From Acidobacteriota bacterium (GTDB lineage Bacteria > Acidobacteriota > Terriglobia > Terriglobales > SCQP01): a stretch of DNA of 64,000 bases. Below, piece after piece: positions 2,958 through 55,393 of the stretch. A program made the position numbers and the translations under genes. The notes beneath the pieces were generated by a model. It had not been told where the DNA came from, did no database searches, and worked only from the letters and a program-made list of their open reading frames with translations. Position 1 is the stretch's first letter. Every line of letters starts with the position of its first letter. The stretch lies in the NCBI GenBank assembly GCA_027459505.1, contig DAIDIE010000040.1:1-64000 (forward strand), read 5' to 3'.

Positions 2958-3341
2958 AGAATTGACCCCCTTTCGCTCACTAAGAATTGACCCCCTCGGG
3001 GCAGAAAGGGGATGAGGGATCAGGTTTGGGGGAGCACCTCCTCGGCCTGGCGGCGGCCTTGGCGCGGAGCTTTTCCCTGAGAAGGAAGCTGTCGCCGCGG
3101 AGGTTGACGACGGTGAGGCGGTACAACAGGCGGTCCAGCGCGGCCGAGGCCATGATGGGGTCATTGGCGAAGACCTGACTCCTGTCGGCGAAGGCCTTGT
3201 TGCTGGTGAGCACGATGGCCTGTTGCTTCTCGTATGTCAGCAATCACGTAAAACTGCCCCCCTGGCGATCATGAAGAATTGCCCCCCCAGTTGGCGGTTG
3301 CTGCGGGATACGCTCGTCAAACGGCACGCCCTACCCATCAC
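2958..3341. mobile_element. Degenerate IS21-family remnant with multiple terminal repeats
   Basis: Two identical 13-base repeats AGAATTGACCCCC lie at 2958-2970 and 2983-2995 (25 bp period), and a variant GAAGAATTGCCCCCCC follows at 3273-3288. Between them is only the 3' part of istB on the minus strand; istA and most of istB are missing. Multiple terminal repeats are typical of IS21 ends. The right-hand copy is in the same rather than inverted orientation, so this is not an intact element but a deletion derivative or stacked left ends. Confidence 0.65.
2980..3243 (-). pseudogene. istB: IstB-like ATP-binding protein, C-terminal fragment
   Basis: About 88 residues match the end of IS21 IstB helper ATPases: IVLTSNKAFADRSQVFAND, ASAALDRLLYRLTVVNLRGD and SFLLREKLRAKAA. 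The Walker A and B regions that should precede this are absent because homology stops abruptly near 3243, where IS-end repeats begin. The reading frame ends (TAG at 2980-2982) inside the terminal repeats, as is usual for istB. It is non-functional by truncation. Confidence 0.7.
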
Positions 3342-3369
3342 CGCGAACGGTGCGGCCGGCCAGGTCTCC

Positions 3370-20627: not shown

Positions 20628-21953
20628 TCAGAGGCCCGAGGCACGGGCGCGGGCAGCTTGCTGTTGCCCAGCGGGGGCTGGCGAGGGTGCTTCTGCAACC
20701 GCTTCGGCGGCCGAGCTGGCAACGATCAGCTCTGACAGCGAAGCCGCGCAGCGTTTCATGGCGCTGCTCATAGGAGACGGCGGCTGCGACTGTTGCTGGG
20801 CCGCCTCCCGCTCCTGCTCGGCCTGCATACGTTCACGCAGGGCATCTTCTTCCGCGCGCTCGGCGGCTTCCATTCGGAGCTCCTCTACCAGGCTGAACGG
20901 TTGGTTTTCAGACATTGAGGCCGCCAGGCCGGCGGCGTTGATCATGGCGGCAGCCGGATGCAGCGGGGAACTTGACGAAATCACGAAGCGCAGCAGATTG
21001 CGGTCATTATGCTCGAAGGCGAGTCCGTTCAGGAGGCACGGCCTCGTCTCCTGAGCCGCCCGCTGGCATTGCTTTCCGTTGGGTCGCTGGCACGTTCTCC
21101 AGTGAGAACGTGAAGCCGCCGAGGCCGGGCTCCTCCCCCGCGCGAGGGGACCGCCCTTCGGAATTTCGCGGCCCTCCACCTGCGATTTCCTCCCACAGGG
21201 AGGACTCGGTGGCTCGCTCCTCAGGAGCAAGGCGTAGGGCTGCATCGAGATCACGAATTCGCGCGCCTCACGCGAGAGCCACTGCCGGAAGGCCGGGTTT
21301 TTCAACCAGCGATAAAAGGTCGCGCGCGGCACGTCAGCCTGCAGGCATAACTGGCGCAGGTTAGGAAACCGGCCTTTGACGATGTCCGGCGAGCAGAAGG
21401 CATGCAGGAGACGCAGTTGCGCGCGGGTTGGGGTGAAGAGGGTCAGGGAAACCGCTTCGGGGGTTTCGACAGTTTGACGGGAGCAACCGGCTGTGGGCCG
21501 CGGGGATGTAGAAGGCACGGCCTCGTCTCCTGAGCCGCCCGCCGGCATTGCTTTCCGTTGGGTCGCTGGCACGTTCTCCAGTGAGGACGTGAAGCCGCCG
21601 ATGCCGGGCTCCTCTCCCGCGCGAGGGGCCCACCCTTCGGAATTTCGCGGCCCTCCACCTGCGATTTCCTCCCGCAGGGAGGACTCGGTGGCTCGCTTCT
21701 CAGGCTCGGGCTGGGGCGGTCGAGGCGGAAGCGGCATGGTCGAGACTGGTTCCAGGCGCGGAGTGTCAGGTGCTGGCGACGGGGTCGCCGCCATGGGTAA
21801 GCCGCCAGACGGGCTCTCCGGCGCAGCTGGGTGCGCAGTGTTGCTCGCGACCGGTGTAGCTTGTTCAGGCGTCGCCGGTGCGGCCCAGCCTTGGCGATTG
21901 CGTGACGGATGGGGTTTGCCGTGGCGATGGTGTTTCTTGTTTTTGCGGGACAT
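20628..21953 (-). CDS. HTH protein containing two in-frame copies of the dispersed 191-bp repeat
   Basis: A 441-residue protein. Residues 1-84 are a basic (SRKNKKHHRHGK) then Pro/Ala-rich tail. Residues about 85-148 are encoded by repeat copy 2. Residues 160-240 hold a helix-turn-helix like those of insertion-element/terminase-type proteins (NLRQLCLQADVPRATFYRWL, NPAFRQWLSREA). Residues about 245-308 are encoded by repeat copy 1, read in a different frame from copy 2. The rest is helical, with an acidic/Gln segment (RMEAAERAEEDALRERMQ) and Ala-rich end. Without the repeats it would be about 313 residues. The ATG has a perfect AGGAGG 8 nt upstream inside a 9-bp inverted repeat. No partner gene is evident; role unknown, possibly DNA binding. 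Confidence 0.65.
   Translation of the reverse strand: MSRKNKKHHRHGKPHPSRNRQGWAAPATPEQATPVASNTAHPAAPESPSGGLPMAATPSPAPDTPRLEPVSTMPLPPRPPQPEPEKRATESSLREEIAGGGPRNSEGWAPRAGEEPGIGGFTSSLENVPATQRKAMPAGGSGDEAVPSTSPRPTAGCSRQTVETPEAVSLTLFTPTRAQLRLLHAFCSPDIVKGRFPNLRQLCLQADVPRATFYRWLKNPAFRQWLSREAREFVISMQPYALLLRSEPPSPPCGRKSQVEGREIPKGGPLARGRSPASAASRSHWRTCQRPNGKQCQRAAQETRPCLLNGLAFEHNDRNLLRFVISSSSPLHPAAAMINAAGLAASMSENQPFSLVEELRMEAAERAEEDALRERMQAEQEREAAQQQSQPPSPMSSAMKRCAASLSELIVASSAAEAVAEAPSPAPAGQQQAARARASGL
21031..21221 (+). repeat. Dispersed structured repeat, copy 1 (191 bp)
   Basis: Starts AGGAGGCACGGCCTC and ends GGTGGCTCGCTCCT. It contains hairpins GAGGC-ACG-GCCTC, ACGTTCTC-CAGT-GAGAACGT (21092-21111) and CCTCCC-ACA-GGGAGG. 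TCAGGAG occurs at 21029-21035 and 21221-21227, exactly 192 bp (64 codons) apart, a possible target duplication. It is inside the HTH gene and keeps its frame open. Confidence 0.85.
21510..21700 (+). repeat. Dispersed structured repeat, copy 2 (191 bp)
   Basis: Same length and orientation as copy 1. Termini are AGAAG...CTTCT instead of AGGAG...CTCCT, a compensatory pair of changes that keeps the ends complementary. In the central hairpin one arm reads GAGGACGT, preserving a G-T pair. Lies inside the HTH gene, read in a different frame from copy 1. Confidence 0.85.
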
Positions 21954-24355: not shown

Positions 24356-24428
24356 GAGCAACCAGTTTAGCAGAGCTGGCCACTGCTTCTTTTCCTCGCC
24401 GCCGCCCGCGGTGGATCGCCAGCGGCAC

Positions 24429-24543
24429 GGCCGCTTTTGTTCCACTGCTTCGTCGTCCGGCCCCCACCCCACCCCACCCCACGCCGCGCGGCGCGGGGAC
24501 CCCGGGCGAAGCTAACGGATGGTGGCCGCGCTTCACTAGCCCG
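24429..24543 (+). repeat. Second dispersed palindromic repeat, copy R1
   Basis: Starts GGCCGCTTTTGTTCCAC, contains a palindromic core CGCCGCGCGGCG and a CCCCA tandem run, and ends CTTCACTAGCCCG. It aligns along its whole length with 38271-38380 (R2). It ends 85 bp before the Phd-type antitoxin gene. Confidence 0.7.
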
Positions 24544-24628
24544 AGTTCGTCGTGGCTCGCCTGGCGAGAACGCTTCTCCACGAATAGCGCAATGAACTGA
24601 GCCTAGTAAACTAAGTCCGGGTGATCCG

Positions 24629-26967: not shown

Positions 26968-27159
26968 AGGAGGCACGGCCTCGTCTCCTGAGCCGCCCGC
27001 TGGCATTGCTTTCCGTTGGGTCGCTGGCACGTTCTCCAGTGAGAACGTGAAGCCGCCGATGCCGGGCTCCTCTCCCGCGCGAGGGGGCCCGCCCTTCGGA
27101 ATTTCGCGGCCCTCCACGTGCGATCTCCTCCCGCGGGGAGGACTCGGTGGCTCGCTCCT
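26968..27159 (+). repeat. Dispersed structured repeat, copy 3 (192 bp)
   Basis: Same orientation and termini as copy 1 (AGGAGGCACGG ... GCTCGCTCCT), with both conserved hairpins (ACGTTCTC-CAGT-GAGAACGT and CCTCCC-GCG-GGGAGG). It lies 48 bp upstream of the mutase start and keeps the frame open, so automated callers could extend that gene through it. Confidence 0.85.
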
Positions 27160-38270: not shown

Positions 38271-38380
38271 GGCCGCTTTTATTCCACCCGCTTCGGTGTC
38301 CGGCCCCACCCCAAGCCGCGCGGCGCGGCTTGGGGGCCCCGGCCGAAGCTCACGGAGTGTCGCCGGGCTTTACTAGCCCG
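38271..38380 (+). repeat. Second dispersed palindromic repeat, copy R2
   Basis: Starts GGCCGCTTTTATTCCAC and ends CTTTACTAGCCCG, aligning with R1 at 24429. Its core is a perfect 12-bp stem CCCCAAGCCGCG / CGCGGCTTGGGG (38309-38320, 38324-38335) with a CGG loop. It begins 8 bp after the Gfo/Idh stop and ends 33 bp before the 3' end of vapC, so it could end transcription from either side. Confidence 0.75.
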
Positions 38381-38412
38381 GGTGGCTGGCGCGCGCCGGG
38401 GGTGCGCGCCGC

Positions 38413-55212: not shown

Positions 55213-55393
55213 TGAGGCACGGCCTCGTCTCCTTCAGGCCGCCCGCTCCCGCTGGTCGCTGGCACGTTCTTCAGTGAGAACGCGAAGCCGCCGATGCCGG
55301 GCTCCTCTCCCGCACGAGAGTGCTGCCCTTCGGAATTTCGCGGCCCTCCACCTGCGATGTCCTCCCGCAGGGAGGACTCGGTGGCTCGCTCCT
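55213..55393 (+). repeat. Dispersed structured repeat, copy 4 (about 181 bp)
   Basis: Starts TGAGGCACGGCCTC two bases after the pstS terminator T-run and ends GGCTCGCTCCT. It is shorter by about 10 bp near the left (the GGCATTGCTTTCC segment is reduced) and its central hairpin reads ACGTTCTT-CAGT-GAGAACGC. CCTCCC-GCA-GGGAGG is intact. It fills the pstS to DUF1080 gap, which has no gene. Confidence 0.8.

Follow-up and report, generated by a model that had tools for sequence, protein, structure and literature searches.

A cleanly inserting repeat element, oriented with replication, lies twice and in two frames within an HTH protein gene of an acidobacterium

How can one gene carry two copies of a dispersed repeat and keep its reading frame open across both? 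The question is raised by an HTH protein gene in the analysed stretch of 64,000 nucleotides (the window), which belongs to one contig (C39) of a draft assembly of 45 contigs. The window contains four copies of one repeat, two of them inside the HTH gene (Table 1). These two are 95% identical to each other, and no stop interrupts the 441-aa minus-strand ORF across either copy. The minus-strand reading of copy 1 ends with ...RPCL, and that of copy 2 is ATESSLREEIAGGG...GDEAVP. The insertion phase is 0 for copy 1 and 1 for copy 2, so that they would be translated in different frames. The original prediction had described two stop-free copies in two frames, as is indeed the case, but its element length of 191 bp has to be corrected to 189 bp.

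Table 1. Positions of the element copies, their host gene and related features. Positions refer to the window unless a locus (L), genome (G) or contig (C) is named; f1 is the family of the source genome.
Feature	Position	Strand	Remarks
HTH protein gene	20628..21953	-	ORF of 441 codons with two in-frame element copies inside
Element copy 1, 189 bp	21033..21221	+	Phase 0, between codons; helical region after HTH
Element copy 2, 189 bp	21512..21700	+	Phase 1; Pro-rich linker between basic N-terminus and HTH
HTH segment, aa 198-236	21246..21362	-	Between the two insertions; PF13022, E=4e-4, under the curated cut-off
Target-side tetranucleotide CAGG after copy 1	21222..21225	+	Rule ^NNNG
Conserved core hairpin with conserved loop	copy 1: 21150..21172; copy 2: 21629-21651	+	Recurs in element-bearing f1 genomes
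Subterminal hairpin CCTCCC-ACA-GGGAGG	21189..21203	+	18 nt from the right end of copy 1
Element copy 3, 190 bp	26970..27159	+	N-terminal extension of methylmalonyl-CoA mutase ORF; Pfam domain aa 141-660
Element copy 4, 180-bp subfamily	55214..55393	+	Start of 3-keto-disaccharide hydrolase ORF
Further dispersed repeat family, ~80-130 bp	24422-24551; 38290-38383
Two-copy 69-nt direct repeat	893-961 / 3274-3342		75% identical
Clean sister empty sites (loci compared)	L299/L304,L313; L303/L306,L312; L298/L320,L328; L287/L321		Genus g3
Sister element in istB-like gene	L049 1390-1590		G009; intact paralogue L307
HTH-ankyrin gene; Y1 gene	L142 38-1099; L142 1411-1752	-; -
Y1 gene; HTH-ankyrin ORF	L143 1486-2040; L143 2303-3193	+; -
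Reverse transcriptase, 701 aa	G000 C39:90888-91292 (L370 253-2358)	-	Best match DRT UG19 defence model
Selenocysteine tRNA	L044 2799-2893	-	G007

The expectation that the repeat recurs elsewhere in the genome was borne out. A 29-mer core pattern with up to three mismatches has 56 matches in the genome, compared with 0 for the reversed control, and the copies gathered from searches and sequence stretches number at least 111, fragments included, in the genome parts examined, 78 of them near full length. The borders, refined on 61 full copies, are GAGGCACGGCCTCGTCTCC...GGTGGCTCGCTCCT, and the main lengths are 189 or 180 bp, both multiples of three. Copies are found at many contig ends, as expected, because assemblers break at repeats. 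Some copies carry inserted hairpin modules, which makes the element modular: L134, L100, L106, L135 and other copies of 230 bp contain a 41-bp hairpin module (GCCCCAGCAACGGCG...TGCCGTTGCTGGGCG) as well as further hairpins. Apart from these internal modules, the genome parts examined gave no convincing autonomous form of greater length with shared termini. At least one further dispersed repeat family is present in the window and, judging by flank matches, in many places of contigs C31, C10 and C34; the window also contains a two-copy direct repeat (Table 1).

The source genome encodes about 12 paralogues of the HTH protein, which are variable, and the N-terminus SRKxKKHH is common to them and to the window protein. 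They are located on contigs C31, C42, C14, C19, C43, C40, C29 and C9, several of them no more than a few kb from a copy of the element. At the position of copy 2, the paralogues have a variable, element-free linker. The closest paralogue, on contig C31, which is 52% identical to the window protein over the HTH and the following helix, has the empty copy-1 site, ...TTGCTCCTG^CTGAACGGA..., and encodes the peptide QPYAMLILNGLAF in place of the QPYALLL, insert and LNGLAF of the window protein. With the 189 bp omitted, the window flanks ATGCAGCCCTACGCCTTGCTCCTG^CTGAACGGACTC align at the DNA level to ATGCAGCCCTACGCCATGCTCATCCTGAATGGACTG of the paralogue with no gap over the junction. Copy 1 is a clean 63-codon insertion with zero target duplication.

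A heptanucleotide, TCAGGAG, had been pointed out at both junctions of copy 1; the pair is real and 192 bp apart, but both the empty site and the flanks of 60 copies show that it is not a target duplication. Over all offsets up to 30 bp from both ends, these 60 copies, many of which are about 95% alike, show no consistent duplication. The element is therefore not a classical MITE; neither terminal inverted repeats of 15-30 bp nor a target duplication, the marks of this class, were found. One could still suppose a MITE moved by a DDE transposase, whose terminal inverted repeats and target duplications have since decayed, since the element is small, non-coding and of high copy number, and its ends weakly resemble inverted repeats. 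Against such decay stands the absence of a duplication both in these 60 copies and at the empty sites resolved at the DNA level, and we regard this explanation as improbable.

Four of these sites belong to sister elements in congeners of genus g3, where filled and empty loci were compared on DNA and 0 bp were duplicated or lost. At a fifth sister site, in an istB gene of genome G009, the insertion is almost but not perfectly clean, and the gene is frameshifted. This istB-like gene, split by the sister element, is part of an IS21-type element, and an intact paralogue is present in the same genome. The target itself is short and one-sided. A guanine at position +4 past one end is found in 59 of the 61 own copies and also at the sister sites resolved against empty sites; position +3 is a guanine in 57% of own copies, leaving +4 as the only fixed target base (^NNNG). 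This rule was not recognised in genome G013.

In-frame copies are not confined to the window gene, as seen from two independent examples. One is a TIGR01777-family oxidoreductase of contig C10, which has a 60-codon in-frame copy within its NAD-binding region; its orthologues in G014, G020 and G021, all of the sister family, have no insert, and about 18 more residues beside the copy are likewise missing from these three orthologues. In G013, a 180-bp sister element lies in frame in a gene for a small membrane protein, which is uninterrupted in relatives from other genera (G004, G005 and G009). The C31 paralogue, in turn, has its own in-frame copy at a different site nearer the C-terminus. Counting the window gene, four genes in two genera keep their frame open across an insert. 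The view of the original prediction that an inserting element is read through in frame, with relatives of the host protein lacking the segment, is upheld by the empty copy-1 site of the C31 paralogue and by the three TIGR01777 orthologues.

The same data bear on two other explanations. The segments might represent a genuine domain shared by unrelated proteins, with no insertion involved, and the peptide ATESSLREEIAGGG is indeed found again in several ORFs. The frame of the segment, however, differs between genes, most copies are intergenic, and the segment is missing from orthologues; the empty sites, including that of the paralogue, rule a shared domain out, and we give it next to no credence. 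A second possibility is that the element is mobile but its read-through is of no biological use, the window gene being a decaying pseudogene whose open frame is a coincidence in GC-rich, stop-poor DNA. Open frames are common at such composition, the HTH paralogues are many and variable, and copy 1 falls within the helical region. On the other hand, the gene retains 441 open codons and a start region common to the paralogues, the codon-usage score gives a strong coding signal before and after copy 1 in one and the same frame, and the unrelated TIGR01777 gene repeats the pattern. Decay of the window gene appears rather unlikely to us.

Read-through is not the rule, as most copies are intergenic; by the codon-usage score, 50 of the 76 full copies are flanked on both sides by DNA that shows no coding signal. 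Copy 4, at the edge of its ORF, is probably intergenic as well. Copy 3 had been taken for another case of read-through, upstream of the mutase, a claim that we do not retain: it sits outside the Pfam domain and probably before the true start of the mutase, between genes. The stop-free minus-strand frames had also been emphasised. All three minus frames of the consensus are open, and so is one plus frame, but these four open frames of six compare with 3.3 expected from composition. The open frames reflect a stop-poor sequence; selection for them was considered and is unneeded, as base composition accounts for the openness. With three stop-free minus frames, an insert in this orientation is readable in all phases.

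The orientation of the element in the source genome follows the replication strand. In contigs with at least three copies, 86 of 93 copies have the orientation of the contig majority, while the maximum reached at random in 100,000 simulations was 76. In the contig of the window, the sign of the GC skew flips near 104 kb, with four plus-strand copies to the left of this point and three minus-strand copies to its right; plus copies lie in positive and minus copies in negative skew. Over all copies, the GC skew differs by orientation with P about 1e-5, a value for neighbouring copies that are not independent, and the skew is noisy outside this contig. An orientation that follows the contig is unexpected of double-strand cut-and-paste, which adds to the evidence against a DDE-type MITE.

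Only local hairpins stand out in the structure of the element; the DNA fold of the whole element is not more stable than that of shuffled sequences (z = -0.63). The core hairpin of 23 nt is found 4-80 times per element-bearing genome of family f1, with counts of 4 to 33 in seven further f1 genomes from several genera, and is at background level in about 86 genomes of the neighbouring sister family f2. In genus g6 the outer core pair is changed from G-C to C-G, with seven sequences changed on both sides, perhaps by a single event. Outside the core, both ends included, the sequence of sister elements varies by genus; the counterpart of the subterminal hairpin in G013 is CCTCC-CAT-GGAGG. Elsewhere in the genome collection, an exact core search matched nothing but records of G013, an Acidobacteriales MAG, and the same search of viral contigs gave 0. 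A selenocysteine tRNA was noted in one further genome (Table 1).

A conserved hairpin core, modular hairpins, the strand bias and clean insertion would also suit a retro-mobile element, that is, insertion mediated by RNA, for instance by a self-splicing or reverse-transcribed structured RNA. No Rfam match was found for the element, though, and splicing needs no preservation of the frame, yet those in-gene copies of the source genome that are confirmed by relatives are in frame. The sole reverse transcriptase found in the genome best matches the DRT UG19 defence model, and the reverse-transcriptase route was rejected on this candidate. An RNA-mediated origin is, in our opinion, a poor prospect.

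Taken together, the hairpins, the strand bias and the clean insertion next to a short target on one side fit single-strand transposition of the IS200/IS605 or REP type. The source genome has two Y1 transposase genes, neither of them flanked by the element or its ends. No tnpA was found in or near element copies, nor was a cognate transposase linked to the element. The Y1 protein encoded on contig C40, whose gene is cut by the contig end, has the subclass 1.2 motif Y---Q--HH. Y1 genes occur in 7 of 8 element-bearing f1 genomes versus 1 of 6 others, counts that come from incomplete genomes and cover differing subfamilies; the Y1 genes of the relatives do not form one clade. Both Y1 genes of the source genome adjoin near-identical HTH-ankyrin genes (Table 1), the HTH of which is of the same weak PF13022 type as that of the window protein.

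The insertion account is well supported, and the original prediction was largely right. The explanation that we favour, with a probability of roughly 0.7, is a replication-oriented mobile element that is inserted as a single strand with no target duplication and persists in genes when its length is divisible by three and its frame is free of stops. A non-autonomous, hairpin-rich element of 180 and 189 bp multiplied in the source genome, inserting beside a short target with a G four bases past one end, with no target bases gained or lost. Single-strand transposition of the HUH/Y1 type acting in trans would be the simplest mechanism. Most copies persist between genes, and those seen to survive within genes have a length divisible by three and a stop-free frame; the window gene was hit twice, in phases 0 and 1. 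The enlarged proteins would then presumably be translated and functional. One gene lengthened twice by the same element in two frames would constitute a direct route from mobile DNA to new protein sequence. More tentatively, we speculate that the elements form a distinct, family-wide class of structured, single-strand-inserted DNA for which one G is all that the target must offer. An enzyme yet to be recognised would mobilise them in trans, and they may repeatedly add 60-63 residues, in any of the three frames, to proteins of free-living bacteria.

Several known systems resemble the element in part. Elements of the IS200/IS605 family insert cleanly, without target duplication. With this family and its derived miniature elements, the element shares the one-sided short target, the subterminal hairpins and the orientation by replication strand (PMC6006769); IS608 follows the replication strand, using the lagging-strand template, and single-strand transposition is known for IS200/IS605 and has been suggested for REP elements (PMC6006769). 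It differs from IS200/IS605 by its target, which is essentially one G and no fixed tetranucleotide, and by the lack of tnpA noted above. High copy number, hairpins and a mostly intergenic location, with some copies in genes, are also features of the REP/RAYT (TnpA-REP) systems (PMC3733652, PMC6006769), but REPs are 20-40 bp long as against 189 bp, and neither a GTAG or CGTC tag nor a flanked RAYT gene was recognised here. The nearest acidobacterial precedent that we found is the class 3 TnpA-Y1 associated structures, of which about 600 are present in Solibacter usitatus, tied to a Y1 enzyme (PMC6006769). These, too, are high-copy secondary structures in an acidobacterium; their CnGA foot was not recognised in the element, and the Y1 motif on contig C40 is of subclass 1.2 instead.

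The original prediction had likened the element to Rickettsia palindromic elements (RPEs), small repeats fused in frame into many genes (PMC2229807, PMC10969869), for which target duplication is given as unknown (PMC2229807). The likeness appears to hold for function: in both cases small repeats in unrelated genes are fused in frame and leave the frame open throughout. The comparison was one of behaviour; we suggest that the element works like RPEs and claim neither homology nor membership. The long palindromic fold with terminal inverted repeats of RPEs was not found in the element, whose host belongs to Acidobacteriales rather than Rickettsiales, whose copies are mostly intergenic and whose insertion is clean and replication-oriented. 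In-frame mobile repeats have been known chiefly from Rickettsia, where their manner of insertion is unresolved. Here, in an apparently unrelated lineage, the mechanism becomes testable through the abundance of copies, the empty sites in congeners, the target rule and the strand bias.
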